Source: Gammaproteobacteria bacterium (GTDB lineage Bacteria; Pseudomonadota; Gammaproteobacteria; Xanthomonadales; Marinicellaceae). Taken from it: DNA of 35,510 nucleotides. The stretch spans positions 1-35,510 of the forward strand of contig JAJRQG010000157.1 of the NCBI GenBank assembly GCA_024280395.1. Direction: 5' to 3'. Below the pieces are notes generated by a model. It saw only the letters and a list, made by a program, of their open reading frames with translations, had not been told where the DNA came from and did no database searches. Numbering within the stretch: position 1 is the stretch's first letter; each line of letters opens with the position of its first letter. Positions 1,638 to 18,903 of the stretch are shown one piece after another. The translations under genes and the position numbers were made by a program.

Positions 1638-1742
1638 TTTCCAAGTTTGTATTAATTTCCCTTCATTTTACTGCTTTTAGTACAAATGCCCTATGGATAT
1701 TTGGGTTTATTTTCGTCAATGAGACAATTGCCCGATTCATTG

Positions 1743-1766: not shown

Positions 1767-1795
1767 AATCCTATTTATTTGGAAAGTACCATCTC

Positions 1796-3990: not shown

Positions 3991-6900
3991 TGTTAGATAA
4001 AATTATTCGATTTTCCCTGACACAGCGCGTTTTTGTGTTGGTTATCTTTGGTGTGCTTATTACATTAGGTATGAATGCGTGGAAAAACATCCCGATTGAT
4101 GCTTTTCCTGATATTTCCACCACTCAGGTCAATATCATCATTAAAGCACCTGGCATGACAGCCGAAGAAATTGAGTCACAGATCACCACCTTAATTGAAA
4201 CGGAACTTTTGGGCATTCCCAGAAAGGACATCTTGCGTTCCACCACAAAATACGCCATTACTTCAATCACGCTTGATTTCAAAACAGGTACCGATATTTA
4301 TTGGGCACGACAACAAGTTAATGAACGCTTATTAAGTATTTGGAATCAATTACCAGCCAATGTTGAAGGCGGACTAGCACCCATGAGTACGCCTTTGAGT
4401 GAAATGTTTATGTTTACCATCGAGAACCCATCGCTCTCAATTACCGAACGTAAACATATTCTGGATTGGCAGATTCGTCCCCTCTTGCGAACGGTTGAAG
4501 GCGTCGCCGATGTTAATGTCTTGGGTGGCGAAACCAAAACTATCCAGTTTTCACCTGATGCTATTGCACTGTCAAATTCCAATATCACTATTGATGACAT
4601 TCAAAAAAGATTGGATGATGCTAATATCAATGGCAGTGTTGGTCGTATTAATGTCGGTACAGAATCTTTGATTATTCGCACTCAAGGGCGTTTTCAAAAC
4701 ATCAATGATGTTTCTAATTTGGTGGTAAAAAACGACAATGGAAAGTTGTATCACTTAAAAGATGTGGGAGAAATTTCATTTAGTTCTTTAGTTCGTTACG
4801 GTGCTGTGACCAAGGATGGACACGAAACCACCGAAGCATTAGTTGTTGCATTAAAAAATGCCAATACTGCCCAAGTGGTTGATGGTGTGGTTGAAAAGCT
4901 CAATCAAATCGAAAAGACTTTACCCGAAGGCACGCATCTTAATGTTTTCTATAACCGAAAAAACCTAATCGAAACAGCCGTTGACACCATTACTTCGGCT
5001 TTGATTCAAGCCATTGTTTTGGTGATTTTGTTATTGGCTGTTTTTTTGGGCAATATCCGTGCCTCGATGGTGGTTGCCACCTCTATTCCCATTGCTGTGA
5101 TTATCACCTTCTTTTTAATGTATCAATTTGGCTTGTCGGCCAATTTAATGAGTTTAGGTGGCTTGGTTATTGCCATTGGCATGATTGTGGATTCTTCGGT
5201 CGTCGTGGTTGAAAACATCATTTCGCAACTCAGTAAAAATGCCAATTTACCACGCATGCACTTAATGTACCGTGCCAGTAAGGCTATTGCTTCTCCTGTT
5301 TTTTCTGGGACAGTTATCGTGATTATGGTGTTTGTGCCACTATTGAGTCTAACAGGACTTGAAGGCAAATTGTTTTCACCAGTCGCTCTAACCATTGTCT
5401 TTGCCATGTGTTCTGCCTTGGTGATTTCATTAACCGTTATTCCAGTACTGGCTTCCTTTTTTATCAGTAACAAAAATTTAGATACACCGGGTTATTTGGT
5501 TAAATTACAAAAAGCTTACACCAACACTCTGGACAAGGTGCTCAGAGCCCCTTCATTGACCATGATTGTTTTTGTTATTGTCTTAATCGTCAGTGGTGTT
5601 TTGTACAGCTTCTTGGGTAAGACATTTATGCCTGTTTTGGATGAAGGTGATATTATTGTGCAGTTGGAAAAATCACCAACCATTTCACTCAAAGAATCTC
5701 TGGATTTAGATAAACAAATTGAAAAGGCTTTATTGGCTAATATTCCTGAGATTAAACAAATCGTTGCCCGTGTGGGTTCTGATGAGTTGGGTCTTGATCC
5801 CATGAGTCTCAATGAAACCGATGTTTTTATGGAGTTGCAACCCAGTGATACCTGGGAAGTGGCAACAAAATCTGAAATTGAAGATAAAATACGCAAAATT
5901 TTGCTTCAATATCCGGGCATAAACTTTGGATTTACCCAGCCGATTCAGATGCGAGTATCAGAGATGTTAACCGGTTCTACAGGTGCGGTTACGGCCAAAG
6001 TATTTGGTTCTGATATTACGCAGTTGTCGGAAATTGCCCATGATATTTCATTGATTGTTAAGAAAACCCAAGGCAGTATCGATGTACAAACCACCATAAT
6101 CGAAGGTGGAGATTACCTCAATGTTGTATTAAAACCTGAATTGGCCAGTCAATTTGATATGAGTGTCGCCGAGTTATCGCATTATTTAAATATTCAAGTG
6201 GATGGTTTTAAAGCGGCAGAAATAATTAAGGGCAAAATCAAAACTCCAATTATGTTTGCCAACAAATCTAATTCGGGCGAAATTTCATCTATCAAAGAGT
6301 TAGAAAAATTGATGGTTATCATGCCTGATGGCACAACCTTACGTTTGAAAGACATTGCAGATGTCACTTTAAAGGTGGGACCTGCTCTTGTCGAACGTGA
6401 AAATGCGGAACGTTTTGCAGTTGTCGCAACCAATGTAACTGGTCGTGATATGGTTGGTTTTGTCGAAGAGCTACAACTAAATGTCAATGCCGAGTTGAAA
6501 TTACCCAGTGGATATTATGTGGTCTATGGTGGTGAATTTGAAAACCAAATCAGAGCCACAAACAATCTGCTAACCGTTATTCCGTTAGTTTTATTTTTGA
6601 TTGTGATTATTCTCTTTTCAACGTTCAACTCATTAGCCAAGGCTGGATTAATCTTGGCCAATATTCCTTTTGCCTTAATGGGTGGCATCCTGGGCTTGTT
6701 TGTCAGTGGACAATATGTTTCAGTACCTGCTTCTATCGGTTTTATTGCCTTGTTGGGTGTTGCCGTACTTAATGGCGTTGTCATGTTATCGCACATCGAA
6801 TCGGTCAAATACAAAAGCAAAGACTTGTTTAAATTGGTGTCAAATGCTGCAGGTGATCGTCTGCGCCCTATTTTAATGACTGCAACCACTGCCATGTTTG

Positions 6901-7055
6901 GCTTAATGCCATTAGTGGTCGCCACAGGACCAGGTGCTGAAATTCAAAAGCCACTGGCCATTGTGGTTATCGGGGGTTTATTTACCTCAACCATCGCCAC
7001 TTTGTATCTACTGCCTATCTTTTACTTTAAATTGGAGAACAAGAATCGTGTGTAA
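3990..7055 (+). CDS. RND efflux pump permease, CusA/CzcA-like (HME family)
   Basis: At 1021 residues this is a full-length inner membrane RND pump. It opens with the heavy-metal-efflux pattern (PIDAFPDISTTQV, GMTAEEIESQIT, TKYAITSITLDFKTGTDIYWARQQV), followed by two large periplasmic loops and 12 predicted membrane helices. Helix 4 carries SLGGLVIAIGMIVDSSVVVVEN, with Asp401 and Glu408 matching CzcA Asp408 and Glu415, but Ala395 stands where CzcA has its first Asp of the DFG triplet; CusA also lacks that Asp. The later QPIQMRVSEMLTG segment is more CzcA-like. The protein is thus a mixed member, and the cation or compound exported is uncertain. It is third in the overlapping operon and overlaps the DUF3240 gene by eight bases. 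Confidence 0.92.
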   Translation: MLDKIIRFSLTQRVFVLVIFGVLITLGMNAWKNIPIDAFPDISTTQVNIIIKAPGMTAEEIESQITTLIETELLGIPRKDILRSTTKYAITSITLDFKTGTDIYWARQQVNERLLSIWNQLPANVEGGLAPMSTPLSEMFMFTIENPSLSITERKHILDWQIRPLLRTVEGVADVNVLGGETKTIQFSPDAIALSNSNITIDDIQKRLDDANINGSVGRINVGTESLIIRTQGRFQNINDVSNLVVKNDNGKLYHLKDVGEISFSSLVRYGAVTKDGHETTEALVVALKNANTAQVVDGVVEKLNQIEKTLPEGTHLNVFYNRKNLIETAVDTITSALIQAIVLVILLLAVFLGNIRASMVVATSIPIAVIITFFLMYQFGLSANLMSLGGLVIAIGMIVDSSVVVVENIISQLSKNANLPRMHLMYRASKAIASPVFSGTVIVIMVFVPLLSLTGLEGKLFSPVALTIVFAMCSALVISLTVIPVLASFFISNKNLDTPGYLVKLQKAYTNTLDKVLRAPSLTMIVFVIVLIVSGVLYSFLGKTFMPVLDEGDIIVQLEKSPTISLKESLDLDKQIEKALLANIPEIKQIVARVGSDELGLDPMSLNETDVFMELQPSDTWEVATKSEIEDKIRKILLQYPGINFGFTQPIQMRVSEMLTGSTGAVTAKVFGSDITQLSEIAHDISLIVKKTQGSIDVQTTIIEGGDYLNVVLKPELASQFDMSVAELSHYLNIQVDGFKAAEIIKGKIKTPIMFANKSNSGEISSIKELEKLMVIMPDGTTLRLKDIADVTLKVGPALVERENAERFAVVATNVTGRDMVGFVEELQLNVNAELKLPSGYYVVYGGEFENQIRATNNLLTVIPLVLFLIVIILFSTFNSLAKAGLILANIPFALMGGILGLFVSGQYVSVPASIGFIALLGVAVLNGVVMLSHIESVKYKSKDLFKLVSNAAGDRLRPILMTATTAMFGLMPLVVATGPGAEIQKPLAIVVIGGLFTSTIATLYLLPIFYFKLENKNRV

Positions 7056-7432: not shown

Positions 7433-7452
7433 GTAAGTGAATGTTCACTTAC
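7433..7452. promoter_or_regulatory. TetR-type palindromic operator, copy 1
   Basis: Two perfect nine-base arms (GTAAGTGAA and TTCACTTAC) flank a two-base centre TG. The core AGTGAATGTTCACT differs by one base from the palindrome before the LOG/YbhGFSR operon at 18888-18903. It begins five bases after the -10 box and covers the predicted start site, so a bound protein would repress transcription. Arm length, spacing and position fit TetR-family repressors; no such gene is in the window. Confidence 0.7.
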
Positions 7453-7473
7453 TTATTTTTAAAGGTGATTATT

Positions 7474-8466
7474 ATGAAAACAGTTACACAAACAATATTA
7501 TTTACAGGTTTATTATTTGCATTAACAGCCACTGCAAATATACAGCTACAACCGGGTATAAGTGGCGCTTGGATAGCTGGTGCTTCAGGACAAGGTATAT
7601 TTGTTAACATTGCTCGGGTTAATGATCAACCCAACTTTGTTGTCACATGGTACGGATATTTAAATGACCAACAAATATGGTTAATTGGCTCACAACCTTT
7701 CGACTACGGAATAGAAACGCTTTCTGTTCCTATGACTATCACATCTGGTACAGGCTGGGATACTAATTTTGTCGAGTCAGACGTCATTAGAAACGCCTGG
7801 GGAACAGTGACCATTGATTTTTCAGATTGCAACTTAGGTACCATGCAATATTCTTCTAACGATGCTAATTATGGTTCTGGATCATTAGAATTAACTCGTT
7901 TAACAGGTACAGATGGTTTGAGTTGTCATGAGGAAACAGGTACAGCTGATTCTATAGCAAAACAAAGTTTAGCTTTTATGCGTGAAGAAGAAAAACTTGC
8001 ACGAGATGTCTATTTAAAATTCAATAGAGACTATGGTCAAAATGTATTTTCAAATATTGCCAGTAGCGAGCAAACACACATGGACTCAGTTCTAAACCTC
8101 ATGTATATCTATAATGTTGAAGATAGCTCAACAGGCATAGAAGGAACTTTCAACAATACTGATTTACAAGCTTTATATGATGTACTTATTGATATGGGAT
8201 CCAGTTCATTAAGTGATGCTTATCTTGCTGCTGCATTAATTGAAGAAACAGACATACGAGACATCGAAGTATTTTCTGAGGGCATAGAGGCAGAAGACAT
8301 ATTGACAACATACGATAATCTTTTATGTGGATCCCGCAATCACTTGAGGTCTTATGTATCAAAGTACGAAGCAGAAACAGGTACTACATACCAAGTACAG
8401 ATTCCTGAATTAGCCAGTGAAGTTGCAGATATTCTTGCTACTGCAAACGAGCAATGTGGAACATAA
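7474..8466 (+). CDS. secreted DUF2202 ferritin-like protein with N-terminal beta module
   Basis: The start at 7474 is chosen over 7441 because AAAGGTG lies six to twelve bases upstream and a clean signal peptide follows (MKTVTQTILFTGLLFALTATA). Residues 28-145 form a beta-rich, Trp/Gly-rich module (GAWIAGASGQGIFVNIA, then WYGYLNDQQIWLIG) that is common in exported proteins of Lysobacterales-like bacteria. Residues 160-330 are DUF2202, a ferritin-like helical domain: FMREEEKLARDVY (168-180), SSEQTHMDSV with an ExxH pair (199-202), and a later IEETDIRDIE. These Glu/His residues could bind a di-iron or other metal centre, but the function is unproven. It lies upstream of a cytochrome c peroxidase, separated by a strong stem-loop, and is likely exported to the periplasm. 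Confidence 0.82.
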   Translation: MKTVTQTILFTGLLFALTATANIQLQPGISGAWIAGASGQGIFVNIARVNDQPNFVVTWYGYLNDQQIWLIGSQPFDYGIETLSVPMTITSGTGWDTNFVESDVIRNAWGTVTIDFSDCNLGTMQYSSNDANYGSGSLELTRLTGTDGLSCHEETGTADSIAKQSLAFMREEEKLARDVYLKFNRDYGQNVFSNIASSEQTHMDSVLNLMYIYNVEDSSTGIEGTFNNTDLQALYDVLIDMGSSSLSDAYLAAALIEETDIRDIEVFSEGIEAEDILTTYDNLLCGSRNHLRSYVSKYEAETGTTYQVQIPELASEVADILATANEQCGT

Positions 8467-8485
8467 TAGAGCTAAAGTTTGAAAA

Positions 8486-8526
8486 TAATTATTACCCCAG
8501 GTCAAATAAATCTGGGGCAATAATTA
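8486..8526 (+). terminator. 15-bp stem-loop between DUF2202 and peroxidase genes
   Basis: Bases 8486-8500 pair with 8512-8526 with a single A/C mismatch, enclosing an 11-base loop; the centre of the stem is CCCCAG/CTGGGG. No T-run follows, and the last paired base is the first base of the peroxidase Shine-Dalgarno sequence (AGGAG, 8526-8530). It may be a partial terminator, an RNA-processing or stability element, or a translational control hairpin. Confidence 0.6.
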
Positions 8527-8536
8527 GGAGAGAAAA

Positions 8537-9520
8537 ATGAACTTAACAAAAACACTACTATTTGCAATGCTTAACATGTCATTCCTAAGCAATGCACAAG
8601 AGCCAATACAGCCCATAAAACCAGCAGAAAACATTAATCTTGCCATGATGGAATTGGGGAAAAAGCTTTATTTTGATCCACGATTATCAAAATCAGGATT
8701 CATTTCGTGTAATTCCTGCCACAACTTAAGTATGGGAGGAACAGATAATTTACCAACATCTATTGGCCATAAGTGGAATCAAGGGCCTATCAATGCCCCA
8801 ACAGTATTAAATTCGAGCTTTAATATCGCTCAATTTTGGGATGGCCGTGCCAAAGATTTAAAAGAGCAAGCCGGTGGCCCTATTGCAAACCCTGGCGAGA
8901 TGGCATCAACACATGCTTTGGCCACCAGTGTCGTCAAATCAATTCCCGGTTATGTTCAAGAATTTGAGCTAGTTTTTGGTAAAGATAAAATTAGTGCAGA
9001 TAGCATGACTTCTGCGATTGCTGAATTTGAAAAAACCTTAGTGACACCTCATTCTCCTTTTGATCAATGGTTGCTTGGAGATAAAGATGCCATTTCTGCA
9101 AAAGAATTGGCGGGTTATGAATTATTCAAAAACAGTGGCTGCATAGGTTGCCATAATGGTGTTGCAGTTGGAGGATCATCCTACCAAAAAATGGGTTTGA
9201 TTAAAAAATTCCAAACCAACAATAAAGCCATTGGCTTAGCAGGAGTGACTCACAAAGACAGCGATAAGTTTATGTTTAAAGTACCAACCCTTAGAAATAT
9301 AGAACTAACCTATCCCTACTTTCATGATGGTGCAACAACCTCATTAAACGAAGCAGTTAATATCATGGGTGAAATCCAACTGGGTCGACAATTTACCAAA
9401 GATGAAAATGATAAGATTGTATCTTTCTTAAAAACATTAACGGGTGATGCACCTTCATTTGATTTACCAAGATTACCACCATCCGTTGCAGAAACACCAA
9501 AACCAGAACCTTTCAGATAA
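8537..9520 (+). CDS. di-haem cytochrome c peroxidase family protein
   Basis: The 327-residue protein has a signal peptide (to about residue 20, SNA) and two CxxCH haem c sites: CNSCH at 58-62 and CIGCH at 202-206. The spacing and the WDGRAKDLKEQAGGPIANPGEM block (101-122) are diagnostic of the bacterial CcpA/MauG family. The VPTLRNIELTYPYFHDG segment (249-265) near the C-terminus is also conserved. Such proteins reduce hydrogen peroxide in the periplasm with electrons from small cytochromes, or oxidise a protein partner as MauG does; the family call is firm but the choice is not. AGGAG lies six bases before the ATG. The small cytochrome c gene follows after ten bases and is the obvious electron partner. 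Confidence 0.9.
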   Translation: MNLTKTLLFAMLNMSFLSNAQEPIQPIKPAENINLAMMELGKKLYFDPRLSKSGFISCNSCHNLSMGGTDNLPTSIGHKWNQGPINAPTVLNSSFNIAQFWDGRAKDLKEQAGGPIANPGEMASTHALATSVVKSIPGYVQEFELVFGKDKISADSMTSAIAEFEKTLVTPHSPFDQWLLGDKDAISAKELAGYELFKNSGCIGCHNGVAVGGSSYQKMGLIKKFQTNNKAIGLAGVTHKDSDKFMFKVPTLRNIELTYPYFHDGATTSLNEAVNIMGEIQLGRQFTKDENDKIVSFLKTLTGDAPSFDLPRLPPSVAETPKPEPFR

Positions 9521-9530
9521 GGAGAAACAT

Positions 9531-10052
9531 ATGAAAAAACTACTACTATTAACACTCGTATTGACATTGAATGTAATGGCATTAACGCCAGAGGCAGAAA
9601 AAGGAAAGCTCGCAATTAGTGCATGTTTGGCATGTCACAACGCTGAATTAACTCCTGCTAAAGCCCCTCCGTTTTATGGTGTACAAAACAAGTACAAACA
9701 AGCATTTAGTGAGAAACAAATGTTTATTCTAGCTATTTCAGATTGGGCAAAAAATCCTACAATAGAGAATTCATTAATGAAACGGCCCATTAAAAAATTA
9801 GGATTAATGCCTGCCATGCCATTACCCGATGATATGTTGGCGCAAATTGGAGCTTATTTGTACGAAGAAGACTTCGAACCACCTTGCACCCATTGGGCGA
9901 ATGATTTAAAAAAAGCTAGTGGTTCACAATCTCAAGGAAAAGGCATGGGTCGTGGTAAGGGTCAAGGCGGCAAGGGTCACGGAAAAGGTATGGGCCAAGG
10001 TGGCAACCATGATGCAATGATTCGCATGAAATACAACCAATTATGTAAGTAG
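9531..10052 (+). CDS. mono-haem cytochrome c with Gly/Lys/Met-rich tail
   Basis: The start at 9531 follows GGAG at 9521-9524 and gives a signal peptide (MKKLLLLTLVLTLNVMA); the longer frame beginning at 9444 is discarded. The 173-residue product has one haem c site, CLACH at 32-36. The likely axial Met is in GLMPAMPLP (residues 91-99), as in small class I cytochromes. Residues 132-160 are an unusual low-complexity tract of Gly, Lys, Met, Gln and His, followed by a short hydrophilic end with a lone Cys. It probably donates electrons to the peroxidase encoded ten bases upstream. The tract resembles one in the next gene, which suggests a shared partner, metal or surface. Confidence 0.85.
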   Translation: MKKLLLLTLVLTLNVMALTPEAEKGKLAISACLACHNAELTPAKAPPFYGVQNKYKQAFSEKQMFILAISDWAKNPTIENSLMKRPIKKLGLMPAMPLPDDMLAQIGAYLYEEDFEPPCTHWANDLKKASGSQSQGKGMGRGKGQGGKGHGKGMGQGGNHDAMIRMKYNQLCK

Positions 10053-10066
10053 TTAGGTTTTCCCCA

Positions 10067-10107
10067 GAGCTACATCGTTTAGTTTAGATGAATGGACTTT
10101 GTAGCTC
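10067..10107 (+). terminator. weak stem-loop after the cytochrome c gene
   Basis: Eight bases GAGCTACA (10067-10074) pair perfectly with TGTAGCTC (10100-10107) across a 25-base loop, 14 bases after the stop codon. There is no T-run, so this is at best a rho-dependent or processing structure. Confidence 0.3.
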
Positions 10108-10182
10108 ACTTTAATCAATAGAGTTAGAACCAATTTACTATTAGTGGTTGGAATAGACTCATCTTAAAAAAGGTAAATAAAC

Positions 10183-10638
10183 ATGAGAAAAAAACTCCTA
10201 ATAAGCCTAACAATCAGTACTTTGACTATAACAGCCTGTAGTTCAAACTCACCGAAAAGGCATGGCAGTATGCCTACTGAGATTTTTGTTACTCAAATAA
10301 AAACTAATGGAAGTAAAATTTTCAATTATAGTCTCATTAAAAAAATGCCAAATCAAGGCAAAGGACAAATGGGAAAAGGCAAGGGCGGAGGAAAACATGG
10401 TGGTATGGGTGGTGGCATGAAAGGGGGTAAAAAGCCAGACATGAGTAAAATGAAAGCCAAAATGGAAGAAAAAGCCGTCAATAAACTCGCTAAAAAACTA
10501 AGTGAGACAGGCTATTGTCGTGAAGGATATATGGAACTAGATAGCTTCTTCGAACGCGGGCATGTAACCATAAAAGGTGAATGCAATGAAACTGCAACAG
10601 CACAAGATAAAAAGACTTTCCCTAATAGTGAAGAATGA
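10183..10638 (+). CDS. putative lipoprotein with Gly/Lys/Met-rich tract
   Basis: I do not recognise a family. The 151-residue product starts with a lipoprotein signal (MRKKLLISLTISTLTITACSS; lipobox ITAC, modified Cys19). A short globular-looking stretch (about 25-54) precedes a low-complexity Gly/Lys/Met/His tract (about 55-90), a Lys-rich helix, and a C-terminal part with two Cys in TGYCREGYMEL and IKGECNET. The tract matches in composition the tail of the cytochrome c encoded 130 bases upstream, so the two proteins probably share a function or a duplicated segment. It would sit on the inner or outer membrane facing the periplasm. A leader of 130 bases with a stem-loop means it may be transcribed separately. 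Confidence 0.65.
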   Translation: MRKKLLISLTISTLTITACSSNSPKRHGSMPTEIFVTQIKTNGSKIFNYSLIKKMPNQGKGQMGKGKGGGKHGGMGGGMKGGKKPDMSKMKAKMEEKAVNKLAKKLSETGYCREGYMELDSFFERGHVTIKGECNETATAQDKKTFPNSEE

Positions 10639-10691: not shown

Positions 10692-10729
10692 CCAATCAGG
10701 TTTGAATGTATTCACTCAAATCTGATTGG
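10692..10729. terminator. bidirectional stem-loop between convergent genes
   Basis: Fourteen bases at 10692-10705 pair with 10716-10729 (CCAATCAG/CTGATTGG plus TTTGA/TCAAA, one G-T wobble) around a ten-base loop. It covers the end of the leftward ATP-grasp gene, whose TGA stop (10696-10698) is inside one arm, so the last codons double as RNA structure. It lies where the rightward lipoprotein gene and the leftward operon meet. There is no T-run on either side. Confidence 0.55.
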
Positions 10730-11853
10730 AGTATGTTATTCAATTCACGTGTATTACTCTTATCCGTTTCTACAAATAGAAACCCGAAAAGAGGATAGCT
10801 TTTATAATCAATTATCCGAGATTCAAGAACATTATTAAAGCCTTGAAGCACTTTATTAAAGTCAAAGTTTTTAATATCATTCGCATTTATTCCTGATGAA
10901 TTATCTAGGACAATGATGCTGTATAATTTATCTTCTTTTCCTTGTAGCATCTTATCCCAGTTGGGTTTTTGTTGATTATAATAATAAAGGTATTGATTAA
11001 AACCATAGGCATAATATGCCATATCTGCGGTGGTACACCAGCCGCCAAAACGCATGGGGTTCACTTCAATGGGTATTAGCTCTCCGTTGGGTTGACGCCT
11101 TAATTCAATGTGCATGGGGAAATTTTTTAACCCTGCTAGATCGGCTAATTTCTGAGTAAATTCAGTAAATTCAAGCAAGTTATATTCAATGATTTCTTTT
11201 GAAGTGGTATAGACACGATCACTGACATCATCATCCGAGACAAATGTGTGCCTTAAAATATTCAATACCACCGCTTGTCCTTGCTTGTTGATGTATGCAT
11301 CAACTGCAAACTCTTCGCCATTTATATTTTGTTCGATAATAAATTGTTCGTCACCCATGACAGAATCAGGATACAAACCTTTGACTTGCTTCATTTCTTG
11401 TCGGATTAAGTCTTGAGTCTTTTGCCACTCATCAAGAGTGTGTACTTTATAGACACCCATGCTAAAAAAGCCAACACAAGGTTTAATGATAAAGGGCAAA
11501 GGCAGTTGCTTAAAATCAACGTCTTTAAGCTCATTGATAGAAACTGATGTAAAAAAGAAATCTGGATACAATTCTTGAATCAACTGTCTAAATTTATATT
11601 TATCTTTAAATAAATTAATCTTTTCAGGTAAAGGAGTTGTAGCAAGGTTCTCATTTATCCAACCTATCGCATTTTCTGAGTTGCTATACACACAAGGATT
11701 CTTTTGTTCAACGATAGTGTCAACAGCTTGATCGTTTGTTAGTGAATTAAGCGTGGTATTTTCAGTAAAATCAATAACGGGTATGGCATTACTTTTTATG
11801 GTGCTTATCAGTAATTGAGAAACATAAGGTTTGTCTAAAAGAAACATAGGCAT
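10696..11853 (-). CDS. ATP-grasp domain protein of unknown substrate
   Basis: The 385-residue protein has the ATP-grasp layout. A pre-ATP-grasp region spans residues 1-80. A central domain has LPFIIKPCVGFFSMGVYKV (nucleotide-binding Lys124 and a phosphate-loop-like stretch) and FIIEQNINGEEFAVDAY (171-187). The Mg-binding end is MHIELRR and PIEVNPMRFGG (247-271, with Glu250, Glu263 and Asn265). Enzymes of this superfamily join a carboxylate to an amine or thiol with ATP through an acyl-phosphate. The acceptor cannot be told, and no known member such as carB, purK or ddl fits. It lies 37 bases downstream of lpxR on the same strand and is probably the last gene of the LOG-YbhGFSR-LpxR operon. 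Confidence 0.8.
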   Translation of the reverse strand: MPMFLLDKPYVSQLLISTIKSNAIPVIDFTENTTLNSLTNDQAVDTIVEQKNPCVYSNSENAIGWINENLATTPLPEKINLFKDKYKFRQLIQELYPDFFFTSVSINELKDVDFKQLPLPFIIKPCVGFFSMGVYKVHTLDEWQKTQDLIRQEMKQVKGLYPDSVMGDEQFIIEQNINGEEFAVDAYINKQGQAVVLNILRHTFVSDDDVSDRVYTTSKEIIEYNLLEFTEFTQKLADLAGLKNFPMHIELRRQPNGELIPIEVNPMRFGGWCTTADMAYYAYGFNQYLYYYNQQKPNWDKMLQGKEDKLYSIIVLDNSSGINANDIKNFDFNKVLQGFNNVLESRIIDYKSYPLFGFLFVETDKSNTRELNNILQSDLSEYIQT

Positions 11854-11890
11854 AGGTGTGTAAGATTAATAATGTAATGCATTCTACCAG

Positions 11891-12895
11891 TTAATCCAAG
11901 TCATAAGAAATATTAACCGCACCAAATAAACTTTCGTCTTTTTGTCCATAAAATTCTTTGCTGCGTAGCACCTGACTGTAGCTTAACCGAACTTTTCCAC
12001 GTTGGTAAGCGATACCATATTGCAAATCAAAAACCAGTGGCTTTTTATCAACACTGTGGCTGTCTTTGAATGTATTTCCATCAAGAAAAATATTACGTGC
12101 CATTGCGCGCCCTTCAATTCCTGCAAACAGATACCAACTGCTGCCTTCTTTGGTGGGGTTAAAAAAAGCATTACCAGGAAAACCTGGACTAATGTTGGGA
12201 GGACCTATATCGTTGCGAAGATTTCTACCAAACCGCACCATCATGCCTGCTCCTGCATAGCTATAAACATTACCCAAGGCTAAAACTTTATGCGGGGACC
12301 ACGAATACTCAAGGCTATTTTTCATGTAGCGAAAATGTTCGCTTTTTCGCACATAAGTGACCACCAGTCCCAATTCATCGCGCAATTGATTATCCCAACC
12401 ATTTGCATGAGGAACACCAATTAAATCATGAAAACCATTTTGAGCTTGCTCTCCAAGTGACGAAGGCCCAACAATGCCTAATGTAAATTCAACCGCATTT
12501 ATCTTGCGGTAATCGGCAGTATTTTTCATTAATGATGCCACTGAAGCACTGCCATAAAGCCATCCTGCATAAGGTCGATCCTTTTCAATTAACTCGGTTA
12601 TCCCCGTATTTTCAGGAGTGAACATCTTTTGTCCAAAAGCATAACCCCTTCCTTTTTTATCGGTTCGAACAAAAAGTGGCAGTTTATCCACAAGCTTTTC
12701 CAACCAAGTAATGGTTTTATCGCGCTGGATATAGTTAAATTGCACGCCATTGGTATAGAAGCGATCTGTACTGGTTCCAAAAACATCGTTTTCTACTTGC
12801 ACACTCCAATAGCCAGATTGATCAGAATCATGCAACTCAACTTGTGCTTTTACCGATATTGACACAATCAAAAAAGCAATTGATAAATATTTCAT
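11891..12895 (-). CDS. lpxR: lipid A deacylase LpxR family outer membrane protein
   Basis: The 334-residue protein has a signal peptide (to about residue 17) and alternating beta strands of a 12-stranded barrel ending in an aromatic-poor but barrel-like C-terminus (SYDLD). The catalytic pattern of LpxR is visible: VENDVFGTSTDRFYTNG (Asn36, Asp37), then QNGFHDLIG with Gln152 and His156 spaced as in Salmonella LpxR, followed by GWDNQLRDE. LpxR removes the 3'-acyloxyacyl chain of lipid A at the outer membrane in a Ca-dependent reaction, which alters innate recognition and surface charge. Its start follows GGAG and is nine bases from the ybhR stop. It therefore belongs to the exporter operon, a link I would not have predicted. 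Confidence 0.87.
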   Translation of the reverse strand: MKYLSIAFLIVSISVKAQVELHDSDQSGYWSVQVENDVFGTSTDRFYTNGVQFNYIQRDKTITWLEKLVDKLPLFVRTDKKGRGYAFGQKMFTPENTGITELIEKDRPYAGWLYGSASVASLMKNTADYRKINAVEFTLGIVGPSSLGEQAQNGFHDLIGVPHANGWDNQLRDELGLVVTYVRKSEHFRYMKNSLEYSWSPHKVLALGNVYSYAGAGMMVRFGRNLRNDIGPPNISPGFPGNAFFNPTKEGSSWYLFAGIEGRAMARNIFLDGNTFKDSHSVDKKPLVFDLQYGIAYQRGKVRLSYSQVLRSKEFYGQKDESLFGAVNISYDLD

Positions 12896-12904
12896 AACGC
12901 TCTC

Positions 12905-14026
12905 CTAATACATTCTATGCTTAAACAACCAACCAGCAAAAGCCAAACACACTACGCCAATAATAGCCATCGGCCAGAACTGAGAAAACAACAAGGTAAA
13001 GCCATTGCCTTCCAAAAATACGCCACGCAAGATAATTAAAAAATAACGCAAAGGGTTGAGGTAAGTTAATAACTGCACACTATCAGGCATGTTGGCTATC
13101 GGCGTGGTAAAGCCTGAAAGCACCACCGCAGGTACAATAAATAAAAATGCTCCTAATACTGCTTGTTGCTGGGTTAAGGAAATGGCAGAAATCACCAAAC
13201 CAATACCAGTGGCAGCAATAAGAAATAAAAATAATCCAAGATACAAGGCGGCAATATTGCCTTGAATCGGTATCTGAAACAATTTAACAATAATGATTAA
13301 AATCAACGTGGATTCAAGCAAACCGATAACAATGCCAGGAATGGCTTTACCAATCAAAATTTGGGTTGGGTTCATCGGTGTGACCAATAATTGATCAAAA
13401 GTTCCTGCCTCACGCTCACGGGCAACCGATAAGGCGGTAACCAACAAAATCACCACCAAAATAAGTGAACCTAAAATTCCAGGCAAAATAAACCAGCGTG
13501 ATTGCAAGTTTTCATTGTACCAATTGCGTACTTCTAAAGCCACTTTGGGGCCTGTTGCACCATGTTGGGCACTCCATTTTTGGTTAAAATCCAGGTTCAT
13601 GCTGGCAATATAGTTCATTGCTGTCATGGCTGTATTGGAGTTTCTACCATCCAAAATTACCTGCACTTTTGCACTCTTGCCTTGTTGCAATTTATCAGAA
13701 AATTGAGGTTCGATATTTAACACCAACAACACATCTTTGTTATCAATTAAAGGTGCAATGTCACTGTCTTTTTTTATGTGCTCAATAATTTCAAAGGTTT
13801 CAGAGCCTTCAAATTGGCTAACAAATTCACGCGAAACCAATCCTTGGTCTTGGTTATAGATGGCTATAGGAACATTATCCAAATCATAAGTCGCAGCAAA
13901 ACCAAAAATCAATATTTGTAAAAGTGGCGGGAAAACCAAAATCAAACGACTGCGTTTGTCCCGAAACAAGGCCAAAAACTCTTTTAATGCCAAGGCGAAA
14001 ACCTGTGAAAAATACTGTGTTTTCAT
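12905..14026 (-). CDS. ybhR: ABC-2 type exporter permease, YbhR-like
   Basis: The longest frame opens at a GTG (14035), but GGAG at 14038-14035 is ideally spaced (eight bases) for the ATG at 14026, giving 373 residues. One N-terminal membrane helix (about 22-42) precedes a large periplasmic domain (about 45-175). Five C-terminal helices follow, with the ABC-2 motif SVAREREAGTFDQLLVTP and the LSGFTTPIANMP segment. These blocks match E. coli YbhR closely. With YbhS it forms the heterodimeric membrane channel powered by YbhF. E. coli YbhFSR is reported as a drug/cation exporter; the substrate here is unknown. Confidence 0.88.
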   Translation of the reverse strand: MKTQYFSQVFALALKEFLALFRDKRSRLILVFPPLLQILIFGFAATYDLDNVPIAIYNQDQGLVSREFVSQFEGSETFEIIEHIKKDSDIAPLIDNKDVLLVLNIEPQFSDKLQQGKSAKVQVILDGRNSNTAMTAMNYIASMNLDFNQKWSAQHGATGPKVALEVRNWYNENLQSRWFILPGILGSLILVVILLVTALSVAREREAGTFDQLLVTPMNPTQILIGKAIPGIVIGLLESTLILIIIVKLFQIPIQGNIAALYLGLFLFLIAATGIGLVISAISLTQQQAVLGAFLFIVPAVVLSGFTTPIANMPDSVQLLTYLNPLRYFLIILRGVFLEGNGFTLLFSQFWPMAIIGVVCLAFAGWLFKHRMY

Positions 14027-14031
14027 CTGCA

Positions 14032-15168
14032 TCACTCCAATGTTTTACGTGATTTACTTGAAACCAAAAAGGCCAAAACAATCAACATCACTAGCAAAGC
14101 AAAGGCATTGCTAAGAATGACTGGCCAAACATTACCCGCCAAAAACAGAGTTTGTAGTTGTGCCACAAAATAACGGGCAGGAATCAAATAAGTGATGCCT
14201 TGAATGAATGTAGGCATTGAATTTATATCAAATAAGAACCCTGATAATAAAAAGGCAGGTAAAAATGAAGCCGCAATAGCCGTTTGACCAGCGACAAATT
14301 GATTTTTAGATACTATTGAAATTAACAAACCAATAAGTAAAGAAACCATCATAAATAAGGCCGAAACTAACACCATAACCCAAAAAGAACCACGCAAAGG
14401 AACACCAAACCACCAAACTGCCAAAGCGACACTGATAAACATGCTACCCATGCCCAATATAAAATAAGGGATTAATTTACCGGCCAACATTTCTTTCATG
14501 GATAAAGGAGTGACCATTAGTGCTTCCATGGTGCCTCTTTCCCATTCGCGTGCCACCACCATAGCAGTAAGCAAAGAACCAATCATGGTCATAATCACAG
14601 CAATCACACCGGGCACTAAAAATAGACGGCTATTTAATGCCGAATTAAACCACACACGTTGTTCTAAAACCACAGGAAGACTTAACTGTATTCCCCTAGC
14701 ATTTGAAAAAAGGGTTAGCCACGATTGCCACACGCCTTGAATGTAACCCATGGTGATATTGGCTTGGTTGGAATCCACGCCATTAATTATGATTTCAATT
14801 GGGGCTTGTTTTCCTGCTTGTAAGTTTTCCGAAAAATTACTGCGCAACCAGACGATTCCATCAATTTTGCGTTCCTCCAAAGCTTGTTGCGCTTCTTGAA
14901 TGGAATGATAATAAGAAGGTTTGAAAAATTCCGATTGTTGAAAAGAATCACTCAAGGACTGAGTCATCATATCGGCTTTTTCCACCGCTATTCCTACTGG
15001 AATATTCTTGGCATCTAATGATACTCCATAACCAAACATAAACAACAAGACCACAGGCATAACAAATGCAATGGCGATACTGGATGGATCACGTATGATT
15101 TGCCACATTTCTTTGCGTAGCATACCCATTAAGCGCATATTTCGAGCGGAAGTTTTATTCACTGCCAT
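14032..15168 (-). CDS. ybhS: ABC-2 type exporter permease, YbhS-like
   Basis: The start at 15168 is chosen over an upstream 15207 because AAGGAG lies seven bases before it; this gives 378 residues and a 14-base overlap with the ATPase gene. The N-terminus MRLMGMLRKEMWQIIRDPSS leads into a membrane helix. A periplasmic domain (about 50-165) and five C-terminal helices follow, with VAREWERGTMEALMVTP, LSGFLFDINSMP and YLIPARYFVAQLQTLFLAGN, all closely matching E. coli YbhS. It pairs with the YbhR-like subunit encoded next; the stop overlaps the ybhR Shine-Dalgarno region. It acts in the inner membrane. Confidence 0.88.
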   Translation of the reverse strand: MAVNKTSARNMRLMGMLRKEMWQIIRDPSSIAIAFVMPVVLLFMFGYGVSLDAKNIPVGIAVEKADMMTQSLSDSFQQSEFFKPSYYHSIQEAQQALEERKIDGIVWLRSNFSENLQAGKQAPIEIIINGVDSNQANITMGYIQGVWQSWLTLFSNARGIQLSLPVVLEQRVWFNSALNSRLFLVPGVIAVIMTMIGSLLTAMVVAREWERGTMEALMVTPLSMKEMLAGKLIPYFILGMGSMFISVALAVWWFGVPLRGSFWVMVLVSALFMMVSLLIGLLISIVSKNQFVAGQTAIAASFLPAFLLSGFLFDINSMPTFIQGITYLIPARYFVAQLQTLFLAGNVWPVILSNAFALLVMLIVLAFLVSSKSRKTLE

Positions 15169-16918
15169 CAGGTTGCTCCTTTTCTTGAATGAGGTATATA
15201 AAAGCATCTTCCATGGATGGATCGGGCTGTGCTTCGGTTCTCGCTAAATTTTTCATGTCTAACGGTGTGCCCGATGCCAATATTTTGCCCTTTGACATAA
15301 TCACCAAATAGTCACAATAGTTGGCCTCATCCATAAAGTGTGTCGTCACCAAAACCGTCACACCCATTTCTGCCAAAGCATTGGTTCTTTGCCAAAATTC
15401 ACGTCTTGCCAAGGGATCAACTCCTGAGGTAGGTTCATCCAAAAATAAAATTTCAGGTTCGTGCATCAAGGCTGCGGCAAACGATAAGCGTTGTTTATAA
15501 CCCAAAGGCAAGTTGCCCGCATTGGTGTCTTGGTATTCTTGCAATTCAAAAGTTTCTAAGGCCCAATCAATCCGATCTTGCTGGGCCTCTTTTCGTAAAC
15601 CATAGGCGCTGGAAAAGAACTTCAAGTTTTGTTTCACCGATAAATCGGTATAAAGTGAGAATTTCTGTGCCATGTAGCCAATTTTACGTCGTGCGCTTGC
15701 CGTTGCCACACGTAAATCCATACCAGCGACAGCCACCTTGCCGCTACTGACAGGCAATAAACCGCACAACATTCTAAAAGCAGTAGATTTGCCTGCACCA
15801 TTGGCTCCCAATAAGCCAAATATTTCACCACGTTTCACATGAAAATTTATTTTATCAACCGCGGTAAAATCACCAAATTTCCGGGTTAAATCCTCCACTC
15901 GAATAACCTCATCATCTGCTGAACCACTGACTTGAATTTCTGCAATACTCAGCCCCTTGCTATTTTGTTTATTTTTTAAACGGGCAATAAAAGCATCTTC
16001 AAAACGTGGGGCAACGGCTTTTATATTAACTTTCTTATTGGCTTTGACCATATCGGGTAATAGGTCTTCAGCCTTTGGAACACTTTGTTCATTTTGCTCA
16101 ATCATGACTAAACGAACACCTTCGCCTTCGATCAATGCATCCAATACCATTGGATTTTGGCTAAGTTTTTGCTGTAAAGACCGGTGCTTGCTATTTTCTA
16201 CTCTGACTTGAAAGACACGTCCATTGACGCCCTGACTGAACTCGTCGGGGTCTCCCTGCATAATCAGCTTGCCTTCGTGCAATAAAACTACTTCATCGCA
16301 GCGTTCAGCTTCATCCAAATAAGCGGTACTTAATAACACACTCATGCCTTGTTCTTGCACTTGTCGGTAGACAATTTCCCACAATTCACGTCGTGAAACA
16401 GGGTCAACACCAACGGTTGGTTCATCCAATAACAAGAGTTTTGGTGAACGAATCAACGTACAGGCTAAACCAAGTTTTTGCTTCATGCCACCCGATAATT
16501 TTCCGGCCAATCGCCCTGTAAATGGACTCATGCCCGTCATGTGCATCAATTCATCGTAGCGGGCTTGGCGTTTATCTTTGGCGACATTCTGCAAATCAGC
16601 ATACAAATCCAGATTTTCCTGTACGGTTAAATCTTCGTACAAACCAAAGCGTTGAGGCATGTAACCAATTTGCGATTGTACTTGCAGAGGCTCTTTGGTC
16701 ACATCAATACCCATGACTTCAAACTTACCCGAATCTGCTGTCAAAATCCCACAAGCCAAACGCATCAATGTGGTTTTGCCTGCACCATCAGGGCCTATCA
16801 AACCTGTTACTTTACCCGTTTTCACGGCAAAACTCATGTCATCAATCGCCTTGACTTGATAATCTTGACTATCAAAGGTTTTGTTGACTTGTGATAAAGT
16901 GAGGATGGCTTTTGACAT
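15155..16918 (-). CDS. ybhF: tandem ABC ATPase, YbhF-like
   Basis: This 587-residue protein fuses two ATPase domains. Domain 1 has Walker A GPDGAGKT (42-49), signature LSGGMKQ (141-147) and Walker B LLLLDEP (161-167). Domain 2 has GANGAGKS (371-378), a degenerate signature LPLGYKQR (470-477) and ILFLDEP (490-496). The H-loop His is missing in domain 1 (STAYLDEAE) but present in domain 2 (TTHFMDEA), so the two nucleotide sites are unequal, as in E. coli YbhF. Length and motif spelling match YbhF rather than RbbA, which carries a fused permease. It energises the YbhS/YbhR pair. It overlaps ybhG by one base and ybhS by 14. Confidence 0.92.
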   Translation of the reverse strand: MSKAILTLSQVNKTFDSQDYQVKAIDDMSFAVKTGKVTGLIGPDGAGKTTLMRLACGILTADSGKFEVMGIDVTKEPLQVQSQIGYMPQRFGLYEDLTVQENLDLYADLQNVAKDKRQARYDELMHMTGMSPFTGRLAGKLSGGMKQKLGLACTLIRSPKLLLLDEPTVGVDPVSRRELWEIVYRQVQEQGMSVLLSTAYLDEAERCDEVVLLHEGKLIMQGDPDEFSQGVNGRVFQVRVENSKHRSLQQKLSQNPMVLDALIEGEGVRLVMIEQNEQSVPKAEDLLPDMVKANKKVNIKAVAPRFEDAFIARLKNKQNSKGLSIAEIQVSGSADDEVIRVEDLTRKFGDFTAVDKINFHVKRGEIFGLLGANGAGKSTAFRMLCGLLPVSSGKVAVAGMDLRVATASARRKIGYMAQKFSLYTDLSVKQNLKFFSSAYGLRKEAQQDRIDWALETFELQEYQDTNAGNLPLGYKQRLSFAAALMHEPEILFLDEPTSGVDPLARREFWQRTNALAEMGVTVLVTTHFMDEANYCDYLVIMSKGKILASGTPLDMKNLARTEAQPDPSMEDAFIYLIQEKEQPDGSE

Positions 16919-17952
16919 TATTTTTTACACATTTCTGCTGCAGTTATGGGTTTGTCATTGGCTATTTTTGTTGTATCAATGATCACTGTTGCTGGCATTC
17001 CTAAACGCAATTCATTGTTTGGATTACAAGCAAAAACACGCATGGAATAAACCAAACGGGTGCGCAATTCTTCGGTTTGAATGTTTTTTGGAGTAAATTC
17101 CGAGGTCGGTGAAATATAACCGACCCAGCCTTCATAAGCCTTATCGGGATAGGAGTCGGTGTATATTTTGGCTCGACTACCAATGGTGACTTTCCCTAAA
17201 GCCGTTTCGGGCAAATAGGTTCTCACCCAAATCGGATCGACAAAAGCCAAAGTCATCACGGGAGTTTGAGGAAACACCATACTACCAACTTCCATAATTC
17301 GGTTACGAATAATGCCATCTGACGGTGCAATTAATTTAGCATCATTAAGGCGTTGTTGAATCAAATCAACCCCAGCACTGCGTGCCAATAAAACCGCCTC
17401 AGCACTGGCAATGTCTTCTTTTCGTGTACCAGCTTCTAACAAATTCAAACCTTGTTTAATCGCCTCAACTTCCGCATTGGCGGCATCTTTTAAAGCTTTG
17501 GCTTGATCAACTTGATCGGCTGTGACCACTTTTTTCTTTAACAATGAACGCAAACGGCTATAACTGCTGCTTGCTGCCTTGGCTTTTGCTCGAGCAGCAT
17601 TGAGTTCGGCTTTGACCTTGTCCACCTCTTCGATGCGACTACCGGCCTTTAATTTTGCCAACAATTGTTGTTGTGCCACCACTTGAGCTTGAGCTTCTGC
17701 TAATTGTGCCTGTAAAATTTCACTGTGCAATACTGCAAGCAATTGACCTTTTTTAACCGACTCACCCTCTTCAACCAAGAGTTGGCTGATGTGTTCGCTG
17801 CCATTAAAAGCCAATTGCACCTCGCGAATATCCACATTGCCATAGAGGTTAAGCGTTGATGTATCTTGTTCTTGCTTGTTGATGAAAAAATAATAGCCAC
17901 CTGCTGCCAGTGCAGTAAGAACTATTATTAAAATTATGGGTTTTTTGTTCAT
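16918..17952 (-). CDS. ybhG: HlyD-family periplasmic adaptor, YbhG-like
   Basis: The 344-residue protein has an uncleaved N-terminal membrane anchor (about residues 5-24) and a first lipoyl half with VEEGESVKKGQLLAVL (61-76). A long Ala/Lys/Glu-rich coiled-coil hairpin (about 77-195) precedes the second lipoyl half, APSDGIIRNRIMEVGSMV (about 209-226), and a beta barrel. This is the arrangement of YbhG/YhiI membrane fusion proteins working with ABC exporters. It would bridge the YbhFSR inner membrane complex toward an outer membrane channel; no TolC gene is in this operon, so a shared one is likely. It lies 21 bases after the LOG gene and overlaps ybhF by one base. Confidence 0.88.
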   Translation of the reverse strand: MNKKPIILIIVLTALAAGGYYFFINKQEQDTSTLNLYGNVDIREVQLAFNGSEHISQLLVEEGESVKKGQLLAVLHSEILQAQLAEAQAQVVAQQQLLAKLKAGSRIEEVDKVKAELNAARAKAKAASSSYSRLRSLLKKKVVTADQVDQAKALKDAANAEVEAIKQGLNLLEAGTRKEDIASAEAVLLARSAGVDLIQQRLNDAKLIAPSDGIIRNRIMEVGSMVFPQTPVMTLAFVDPIWVRTYLPETALGKVTIGSRAKIYTDSYPDKAYEGWVGYISPTSEFTPKNIQTEELRTRLVYSMRVFACNPNNELRLGMPATVIIDTTKIANDKPITAAEMCKK

Positions 17953-17973
17953 TTTATTTTCCTCTTTTAAGGA

Positions 17974-18864
17974 CTATTTAGGTGGTTGACCATGGTAAAA
18001 ATCAACCATAACCTCAACAGCTTGTTCTGCCGTATCAACTATGTGGAATAAAGCCAAATCATTGCTATGAATAAAGCCCTCTTGTTGCAAGTAATCAAAA
18101 TCAATCACCCGTTGCCAGTATTCTTTACCCAACAGTATAATGGGTAAACGTTTCATTTTCTTAGTCTGCACCAATGTTAACACCTCAAACACCTCATCCA
18201 GCGTGCCAAAACCACCAGGGAAAGCAATCAAAGCTTTAGCCCGCAGTAAGAAGTGCATCTTTCGCAATGTAAAATACTGAAACTGAAAACACAAATCGGG
18301 GCTGATATAGGGGTTGGGTGCTTGTTCATGCTCCAAAGTAATATTAAAACCAACACTGTGCTGTTTGACATCAAAAGCACCTCTGTTGGCAGCTTCCATA
18401 ATACCTGGACCACCACCCGTAACCACCACAAAATCTTTGCGGTTTTGTTGTTGAAACTGCAAAGAAACTATTTGAGATAGCCTTTGCGCTTCTTGATAAT
18501 ACTTAGATTGTTTGACTTGACGCTGTGCTTTTTTCAATGCTACTTGCGCTTGAATATCATTGGGATTATCTTTTACTTTTTGTTGCGCTTGTTGCCATTG
18601 TTCTTGTGCATCTTCAGGGTTTAAAATTCGAGCACTGCCAAAAATCACAATTGTTGAGTTAATACTTTTATCACGTAAGGCCTGTTCGGGTTTAAGTAAT
18701 TCCAATTGTAAACGCACAGGACGTAAATCGTCACTGGTTAGAAACTCTGAATCCTCATAAGCCAATTGATAAGACTGGCTTTGCACAATTTTATCTTGTA
18801 ACCGCTTAATCTGAAGCCTACTTAGTGGAGCACTCCGTTTGTTACTTGATGTAGTTGTATCCAT
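17974..18864 (-). CDS. LOG family protein (nucleotide 5'-monophosphate phosphoribohydrolase-like)
   Basis: The protein has 296 residues, including a charged, Gln-rich N-terminal extension of about 70 and a second Gln/Lys-rich helical insert (about 85-145) before the core. The lysine-decarboxylase-like/LOG Rossmann fold is marked by VVTGGGPGIMEAANRGA (147-163) and PGGFGTLDEVFEVL (216-229). The latter holds the diagnostic PGGxGTxxE motif and its catalytic Glu, together with Arg in TLRKMHF. LOG enzymes split N-glycosidic bonds of nucleoside monophosphates (cytokinin ribotides in plants and pathogens, AMP/GMP/IMP in bacterial relatives). Its real substrate is open. It is first in the exporter operon, directly behind the promoter and operator at 18888-18931. 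Confidence 0.87.
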   Translation of the reverse strand: MDTTTSSNKRSAPLSRLQIKRLQDKIVQSQSYQLAYEDSEFLTSDDLRPVRLQLELLKPEQALRDKSINSTIVIFGSARILNPEDAQEQWQQAQQKVKDNPNDIQAQVALKKAQRQVKQSKYYQEAQRLSQIVSLQFQQQNRKDFVVVTGGGPGIMEAANRGAFDVKQHSVGFNITLEHEQAPNPYISPDLCFQFQYFTLRKMHFLLRAKALIAFPGGFGTLDEVFEVLTLVQTKKMKRLPIILLGKEYWQRVIDFDYLQQEGFIHSNDLALFHIVDTAEQAVEVMVDFYHGQPPK

Positions 18865-18887: not shown

Positions 18888-18903
18888 TAGTGAATATTCA
18901 CTA
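18888..18903. promoter_or_regulatory. TetR-type palindromic operator, copy 2
   Basis: TAGTGAATATTCACTA is a perfect 16-base palindrome. Its core AGTGAATATTCACT matches the operator before the DUF2202 gene at 13 of 14 positions. Read on the minus strand it begins at the last base of the -10 box and covers the predicted start site, 24 bases before the LOG start codon. This geometry is that of a repressor site. The exporter operon is orthologous in content to E. coli ybhGFSR, which is controlled by the TetR-family protein CecR, so a CecR-like repressor is the natural candidate. Confidence 0.75.

Follow-up and report, generated by a model that had tools for sequence, protein, structure and literature searches.

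The locus and its six-gene core

The window analysed here is a 35,510-nucleotide stretch of DNA (contig JAJRQG010000157.1) from a gammaproteobacterium of the family Marinicellaceae, whose 3.77-Mb genome is designated G000; G-numbers denote genomes and L-numbers loci. Positions 10696–18864 hold seven successive minus-strand open reading frames (ORFs) with gaps of 21, −1, −14, −4, 9 and 37 bases, in which an original prediction, made from the sequence alone, had recognized one operon combining a nucleotide hydrolase (LOG), a YbhGFSR exporter, an outer-membrane lipid A deacylase (LpxR) and an ATP-grasp ligase. All seven ORFs are present with these gaps, the −4 being the overlap of YbhS and YbhR, and a Pfam scan of 23 window proteins, with a few window ORFs lying outside it, backs each of the proposed gene names at family level.

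The leading gene (17974–18864; 296 aa) encodes a LOG-family (TIGR00730) nucleotide 5′-monophosphate phosphoribohydrolase, as judged by Pfam (Lysine_decarbox/LOG, 111 bits), NCBIfam (TIGR00730, 102.4 bits, passing the cut-off of 96.35), motifs and tree placement. The motifs GGGPGIMEAANRG and PGGFGTLDE are kept and are invariant in six aligned sequences, and the best matches in the Protein Data Bank (PDB) are named cytokinin riboside 5′-monophosphate phosphoribohydrolase. While the window LOG is like the TIGR00730 phosphoribohydrolases in both respects, it differs from them by about 120 residues ahead of the matched domain, partly shared with 5wq3, and by its place in a separate, exporter-tied branch. 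It would be expected to release the base from a nucleoside monophosphate.

At family level, the four following genes make up a complete YbhGFSR-type exporter set of HlyD adaptor, double ATPase and two ABC-2 permeases. They encode a YbhG-like HlyD-family membrane fusion protein (16918–17952; 344 aa; HlyD_D23 62.6 bits, HlyD_3 54.5 bits), a YbhF-like ABC ATPase with two ATP-binding domains (15155–16918; 587 aa; ABC_tran over two stretches), and YbhS-like (14032–15168; 378 aa) and YbhR-like (12905–14035; 376 aa; GTG start) ABC-2 permeases, each with ABC2_membrane_3. The YbhS ORF is listed from 15207, and its in-frame ATG at 15168 yields the −14 overlap. YbhG scored 334 bits against NCBIfam PRK03598 (cut-off 393), and YbhF, YbhS and YbhR all matched the RbbA model below its cut-off of 1050; since these cut-offs were not reached, "YbhGFSR-like" is the safe name. 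The likeness to RbbA-type exporters extends to a Hoeflea cluster with an RbbA form beside LOG, whereas in the window the ATPase and permease are separate proteins. The operon can also be likened to ybiH(cecR)-ybhGFSR of Escherichia coli in its proposed TetR-type control and in the order adaptor, double ATPase, two ABC-2 permeases; the E. coli unit is, however, a five-gene operon without LOG or lpxR according to the accessible part of PMC7190983, and in the window a TetR gene is not adjacent. The same part of that source describes YbhFSR as an efflux system under the TetR-type YbiH, with tetracycline efflux and Na+(Li+)/H+ transport. The window exporter may similarly act in drug efflux.

The sixth gene (11891–12895; 334 aa) encodes an LpxR-family outer-membrane lipid A deacylase with a signal peptide discerned by eye and a Pfam LpxR domain of 334.8 bits (cut-off 26). 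It belongs to the same family as LpxR of Salmonella (PDB 3fid), with which most of the barrel aligns, and its H156, invariant in 10 aligned sequences, coincides with H122, the catalytic histidine in 3fid numbering according to the accessible part of PMC6260217. In contrast to the Salmonella enzyme, it has no equivalents of K67, E128 and K129 and is encoded in an efflux operon. Simulations reported in the same part of PMC6260217 found no lasting E128–H122 bond. Because the catalytic histidine is kept but E128 and K129 are not, deacylation of lipid A by the window LpxR is rated as likely only.

The order LOG-YbhG-YbhF-YbhS-YbhR-LpxR is kept in the congeners G006 and G010 with 86–97% protein identity, and in a third, G004, where a contig end leaves only YbhS-YbhR-LpxR; YbhR is 96–97% identical in all three. 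The other seven congeners searched (G001–G003, G005, G007–G009), several of them incomplete assemblies, gave no LpxR or YbhR match. Because this order is conserved, the first six genes are a real unit, and we conclude that LOG-ybhG-ybhF-ybhS-ybhR-lpxR is an inherited operon, with the ATP-grasp gene outside its core. The predicted conservation of lpxR beside ybhGFSR was borne out in relatives; that of the ATP-grasp gene was not, as it is beside ybhGFSR or lpxR neither in the three congeners nor at 49 other loci.

This last gene (10696–11853; 385 aa; ATP-grasp_4, 206.5 bits) encodes an ATP-grasp ligase and follows lpxR in only one of the four genomes of the genus in which the lpxR end is visible, namely G000. 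In G004, G006 and G010, LpxR is directly followed by a convergent gene equivalent to window 10183–10638, while ATP-grasp homologues of 65–66% identity sit at other places in G003, G006 and G010. The gene has a G+C content of 34.4%, against 39.3–43.0% for the other six. A hairpin separates LpxR from the convergent gene in G006 and G010 (z −5.9 and −3.3; of the three congeners these two, and not G004, were folded), and folding of the window revealed nothing unusual between lpxR and the ATP-grasp gene or behind the latter. Given that the gene is not at this place in the congeners, its lower G+C and the congener hairpin not seen here, we regard it as a late addition, acquired 3′ of lpxR in this lineage; it may be co-transcribed by read-through. 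Core membership was rejected on the congener placement, G+C, hairpin pattern and the 49 other loci.

The ATP-grasp gene occurs in 10 of 101 genomes, G000 included and two by weak matches only, and homologues were found at 43 loci over several phyla, some titled as archaea. Of the 50 neighbourhoods compared, the window included (L013 was omitted as lying on the same contig as L085), the 49 others hold no LpxR or YbhG homologue. In L044 an ABC-2 permease of the YbhS/YbhR similarity group and a peroxidase homologue lie five and two genes, respectively, from the ATP-grasp gene. In L091 (G071) the distances are two genes for an RND-pump (resistance-nodulation-division) homologue and five for an ABC ATPase, and L018 and L034 each hold an ABC ATPase homologue in the vicinity. 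We read these transporter homologues as members of large generic families. In the predicted structure (mean predicted local distance difference test score, pLDDT, 90) the nearest folds are L-amino acid ligases, with 4wd3 and 3vot top-ranked at 16–17% identity; Pfam and the model agree on an ATP-grasp fold, the ligase likeness gives no substrate, and dipeptide formation is only a candidate activity. In Gastranaerophilales (L030 and others) the gene commonly lies between TPS/pilin-like and LptC/LptA-like genes, a context unlike the window.

The palindrome, its promoters and a candidate regulator

The operon promoter (18931–18903, minus strand; −35 TTGAAA, 17-base spacer, −10 TATAGT) has 10 of 12 consensus matches and aligns with those of G006 and G010. 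Touching its −10 is a perfect 16-base palindrome, TAGTGAATATTCACTA (18888–18903), which we propose as a TetR-type operator. The single promoter of the original prediction gains from the conservation of this LOG-proximal site with its adjoining palindrome in the two congeners; a consensus scan, which returned 27 promoter-like sites against 26.9 in shuffles, is on its own no proof of a single promoter.

The degenerate 14-base core of the palindrome, AGTGARYRYTCACT, is rare: three sites were found in G000, two each in G006, G010 and G022, one each in G009 and G019 and none in G012, and a reversed-pattern control gave no site in six of the same seven genomes and one in G012. All 11 sites lie before genes. 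The three in G000 are at the LOG promoter, at the head of the convergent DUF2202/cytochrome operon, and between a TetR gene and RND-pump genes on another contig, C112. The first two placements are repeated in G006 and G010 and the third in G009, and the remaining sites precede a small membrane-protein gene that leads a beta-CASP/exporter operon (G019, G022) and a TetR gene (G022). Eight promoters from G000, G006, G009 and G010 align in a CTTG, a TATA and the palindrome, which overlaps them or lies just downstream; a repressor site usually overlaps or directly follows its promoter. A related palindrome stands ahead of TetR in G511 and also in the Hoeflea plasmid.

The 23 Pfam-scanned window proteins include no TetR, and thus no adjacent CecR-family regulator was seen. 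The CecR model cut-off was not reached by the C112 TetR or by the TetRs of related clusters, for which CecR membership was rejected. On C112 (L309, 1456–8159) the TetR gene (6068–6661) and the genes for an RND adaptor and pump diverge from an intergenic region that holds the third palindrome (at C112 position 6033). Downstream lie genes for a 131-aa membrane protein, which shares 33% identity over 112 residues with a 146-aa protein of G019, for DUF2141 and for cytochrome b561.

Recurrence of the LOG–exporter–LpxR association

Profile searches over 369 genomes of the class matched LOG in 56, LpxR in 46 and YbhR in 50, G000 included in each. For LOG, 40 of the 57 places in class genomes (L185–L224) and two of G000 were compared, with neighbours sought within 9 kb. 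In a tree of 61 LOGs, the window protein falls in a nine-row branch (support 100/97) of five genera, in which L108 and L109 are identical, and all nine rows have LpxR and/or a YbhGFSR/RbbA-type exporter nearby. Outside the branch, YbhGFSR was found in one of 52 rows (L207) and LpxR in none, several of these loci being short (4–5.5 kb in L190, L205, L206, L208 and L220), which limits the visible neighbours; the exporter references excluded the MacB type, so that MacB-type exporters may occur among the 52.

The pattern was then tested on new genomes by running a profile built from the branch on 190 genomes of the order and 190 of the phylum. Two hits exceeded 470 bits, G525 and G511 (476.1 and 473.6 bits; L288 and L289), and both lie in exporter/LpxR clusters. 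In the enlarged branch (a quick tree of 12 rows including L290; SH-like approximate likelihood ratio test, SH-aLRT, 94), 11 of 12 rows are linked. In seven LOG loci with lower scores (L291–L297, two of them below 12 kb) neither LpxR nor a YbhGFSR set was seen; a distant ABC ATPase match turned up in L291 and L294, and a beta-CASP gene in L292.

The pairing of LpxR with the exporter was also assessed independently of LOG, using a radius of 10 kb. Leaving G000 aside, LpxR lies near YbhR in three of the nine class genomes that have both (G206, G224 and G433), whereas random placement would give 0.07 genomes (P ~4e-5); because G224 and G433 are of one family, the cases are not fully independent. 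Seen from LpxR, 40 of the 47 class places were compared together with those of G000, G044, G053 and G224, leaving out G244, G366 and G443. Within 9 kb, four of the 40 class loci, several of which end at contig borders, have a YbhR/RbbA-type exporter (L243, L244, L253, L254) and two an RND pump (L250, L251). Exporter-linked LpxRs fall in several branches of a quick tree with weak deep forks: one group holds G019, G224, G098 and G511, another the window genus with G433 and G404, and those of the Hydrogenophaga plasmid, G114 and G245 stand elsewhere.

The clusters themselves differ in make-up. Two genomes of genus g3 in the same family (G019, G024) carry a beta-CASP metallo-β-lactamase (MBL) protein, YbhGFSR, an outer-membrane channel, LOG, LpxR, cytochrome c′ and phosphoketolase, and G224, of another family, has TetR, YbhGFSR, channel, beta-CASP, LOG and LpxR. 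G098 and G511 share beta-CASP-LOG-LpxR, with a divergent TetR followed by adaptor, permease, ATPase, a cytochrome c′-like protein and a channel; the exporter is MacB-like by a family scan made on G511 only. G525 has TetR, beta-CASP, YbhGFSR and LOG, with no LpxR on its 18.6-kb contig, and in G433 LpxR directly follows a YbhGFSR whose YbhF is split into two ORFs. The genes tagged "F" in L272 and L274 (37–38% identity) we took for other ABC ATPases, and they do not count as YbhF here. Antisense ORFs placed over LOG and YbhF in L185 by the gene caller were treated as mis-calls. In G031 (L111), the LpxR gene after LOG is broken by an in-frame stop.

Plasmids carry comparable sets. In the Hydrogenophaga conjugative plasmid NZ_CP044976.1 (L225, 9014–17663), TetR is divergent from LpxR-HlyD-ATPase-two permeases-channel, and the Hoeflea plasmid has TetR-MBL-LOG-HlyD-RbbA-permease. 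A Marinobacter salarius plasmid (L230, 7188–13377) has MarR-LpxR-RND adaptor-RND pump, that is, LpxR with a different pump class. Flanked by a relaxase gene on one side and conjugation genes on the other, the L225 cluster is cargo of a transfer element.

In a 13-row tree of YbhR, in which the program flagged long branches, the window groups with G303 (82/86), apart from G019, G022, G024, G224 and G525 (100/100). The LOG branch is shared but the pump and LpxR lineages differ, and we therefore take the pattern as repeated recruitment, which favours a working link over shared descent alone.

Proposed function and competing explanations

We interpret the six-gene unit as an inherited, repressor-controlled efflux and envelope-defence operon and assign this reading, which rests on comparative sequence data, a probability of about 0.62. 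The parts are known; as a whole, the operon would be of the YbhGFSR exporter type, with a TetR-like operator in front and with LOG and lpxR as added genes. The TetR-family repressor encoded beside the RND pump on C112 would probably bind the AGTGARYRYTCACT sites and hold down three promoters, those of its own TetR/RND-pump region, the LOG operon and the convergent DUF2202/cytochrome peroxidase operon, until a membrane-active or otherwise toxic compound lifts it. YbhGFSR, with a TolC-type channel encoded elsewhere, would then extrude the toxic compound, and LpxR would remove 3′-acyl chains from lipid A, altering outer-leaflet packing. LOG would cleave nucleotide monophosphates to base and ribose 5-phosphate, in salvage or in clearance, and the ATP-grasp gene may be read through from the LOG promoter. 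The combination of TetR-type control, a pump and an outer-membrane enzyme, with an RND pump and a peroxidase behind the same palindrome, is what leads us to propose an inducible response to a toxic or membrane-active compound. The envelope unit of the original prediction accordingly survives for LOG, the exporter and LpxR, on their order in congeners, their recurrence, their adjacency above chance and the shared palindrome, and fails for the ATP-grasp gene. The role of LOG is the weakest step and could be salvage, clearance of damaged nucleotides or supply of bases for export.

Several observations weigh against this interpretation. G022 has YbhGFSR and palindromes, but no LpxR and no LOG of the branch; the window operon has neither the beta-CASP gene nor the outer-membrane channel usual beside LOG in most other clusters. 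In the window LpxR, E128 and K129 of 3fid align with P162 and H163, and K67 is likewise not kept. LpxR and YbhR occur together in ten class genomes, six of which keep them apart or on other contigs, and most LpxRs stand apart, with neither exporter type near 34 of the 40 class loci. The next hit of the LOG-branch profile, G641 (424 bits, L290), lacks both LpxR and such an exporter over the 19.9 kb covered. Nor are efflux neighbours peculiar to the branch: of the 52 LOGs beyond it, six have an RND pump within 9 kb. As for regulation, no close palindrome was found in L112, L113, L185, L207, L225, L230, L243 or L288 (the best, in L112, with 3 mismatches), and none before a TetR gene in G006 or G010. 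The C112 TetR is 50% identical to that of G009 and only 18–25% identical to TetRs inside the clusters of other genera and plasmids, which indicates that the regulators differ between clusters though the palindromes are alike.

The leading alternative is nucleotide or RNA salvage under low oxygen or stress, in which LOG would turn RNA-derived nucleotides into ribose 5-phosphate, acetyl phosphate and ATP, with exporter and LpxR as companions in a cluster of the survival type and, in relatives, an MBL beta-CASP nuclease, phosphoketolase (XFP) and acetate kinase (AckA) as partners, comparable to the low-oxygen-activated (lxa) locus of Burkholderia. Such partners do occur: LOG-AckA-XFP-beta-CASP in G025 (L123) and LOG-beta-CASP-(561 aa)-XFP-AckA in G110 (L199), where AckA was assigned by sequence and similarity and not by family scan; LpxR followed by XFP and cytochrome c′ in G019 and G024; beta-CASP, AckA-like and XFP genes near one LpxR of G179 (L264); and, in 16 of 40 class loci, a beta-CASP gene no more than 9 kb from LOG. 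However, no beta-CASP, XFP or AckA gene comes that close to LOG in the window, in G006 or in G010, the LOGs of G025 and G110 are outside the linked branch, and the palindrome links the operon to TetR and RND-pump genes. The lxa likeness is by analogy only, through stress-type genes (phosphoketolase, cytochromes) near LOG in relatives; the phosphoketolase and cytochrome-type partners are not at the window locus. In the accessible parts of the lxa literature, where LOG and LpxR were not among the things sought, phosphoketolase is unmentioned, and the Burkholderia cenocepacia locus is described with six universal stress proteins; none is among the 23 Pfam-scanned window proteins, a few window ORFs being unscanned. 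We consider salvage unlikely, if still a serious contender. The lxa locus as a direct parent, which those parts neither support nor exclude, was set aside. The gene sets of L123, L199 and L264 may represent an RNA-to-acetate energy route.

It is less probable still that LOG, exporter and LpxR came under one promoter in the genus through an accident of history and do no joint work. The differing LpxR and YbhR lineages of the genus and the 34 exporter-free class LpxR loci fit such a loose association, but it accounts poorly for recurrence above chance with different LpxR lineages and gene orders. We also give little credence to a modified nucleobase as the cargo of the exporter: in the fuller clusters beta-CASP would degrade RNA, LOG would free bases from the modified nucleotides so formed (isopentenylated adenylates, for example), YbhGFSR would export them as waste or signals, LpxR would adapt the outer leaflet, and the window operon would keep the LOG, pump and LpxR part of this line from RNA turnover to export. 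That all seven genes form one biosynthesis-and-export pathway, the ligase making an amide- or peptide-like compound for secretion, appears highly improbable; the 37-base, same-strand gap with no notable hairpin, the fold nearest L-amino acid ligases and the transporter homologues two to five genes away in L044 and L091 suit it, and the absence of the gene from the locus in three congeners, its other locations, its lower G+C and its 49 other neighbourhoods oppose it. Least credible is that the palindromes are SlmA-type nucleoid-occlusion sites and the operon constitutive. The core resembles the consensus GTGAGTACTCAC published in PMC3116907 and is identical to it in G019 and G022, and six of seven TetRs scanned score 47–89 bits against the SlmA model (C112 TetR 61.6, G009 TetR 47.2), the Hydrogenophaga TetR giving no match; yet none reaches the 120-bit cut-off, and the genomes here have 0–3 sites, all 11 before genes, versus 50 in E. 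coli K-12, mostly in coding regions, according to the accessible part of PMC3116907. An anti-phage defence role was rejected on the result of PADLOC, which gave no match for LOG, LpxR or the ATP-grasp protein and two weak hits for the beta-CASP protein of L108.

Studies of LpxR have treated it as a stand-alone lipid A modifier. The occurrence of LpxRs of several lineages near tripartite exporters, above chance and in one case on a conjugative plasmid, suggests that selection can act on efflux and lipid A trimming as a pair, and the exporter-tied LOG branch raises the question of why nucleotide cleavage joins an efflux response. In the open-licence literature searched, which omits most subscription papers, the LOG/exporter/LpxR combination, its recurrence and the regulon were not found, nor was LpxR with an ATP-grasp ligase. 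The accessible part of PMC10936184, which covers LpxR, efflux and TetR, has no such operon, and neither do the titles and abstract starts among the matches listed. The palindrome and its candidate TetR make the proposed regulon directly testable, and the same palindrome adds to it a second operon with cytochrome-type redox proteins.

This convergent operon (7436–10638) is conserved with its palindrome in G006 and G010. The second palindrome copy, AGTGAATGTTCACT (7436–7449), lies at its promoter and is followed on the plus strand by genes for a DUF2202 protein (7474–8466; the ORF is listed from 7441 and the start at 7474 is preferred), a MauG-like di-haem cytochrome c peroxidase (8537–9520; CCP_MauG, 193.8 bits) and a small c-type cytochrome (9531–10052; start inferred within the ORF 9444–10052; Cytochrom_C 21.1 bits, just short of the cut-off of 21.3). 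The last gene (10183–10638, plus strand) encodes a 151-aa protein, lipoprotein-like by eye and with no family found in Pfam, whose homologues occupy the same place in G004, G006 and G010. At lower coordinates, window 1140–7055 holds a gene set made up of a CusA/CzcA-type RND pump, the two genes upstream of it and one for a small protein (1140–1637; helix-turn-helix-like by eye). This RND set is also found beside the exporter clusters of G019, G022 and G024.

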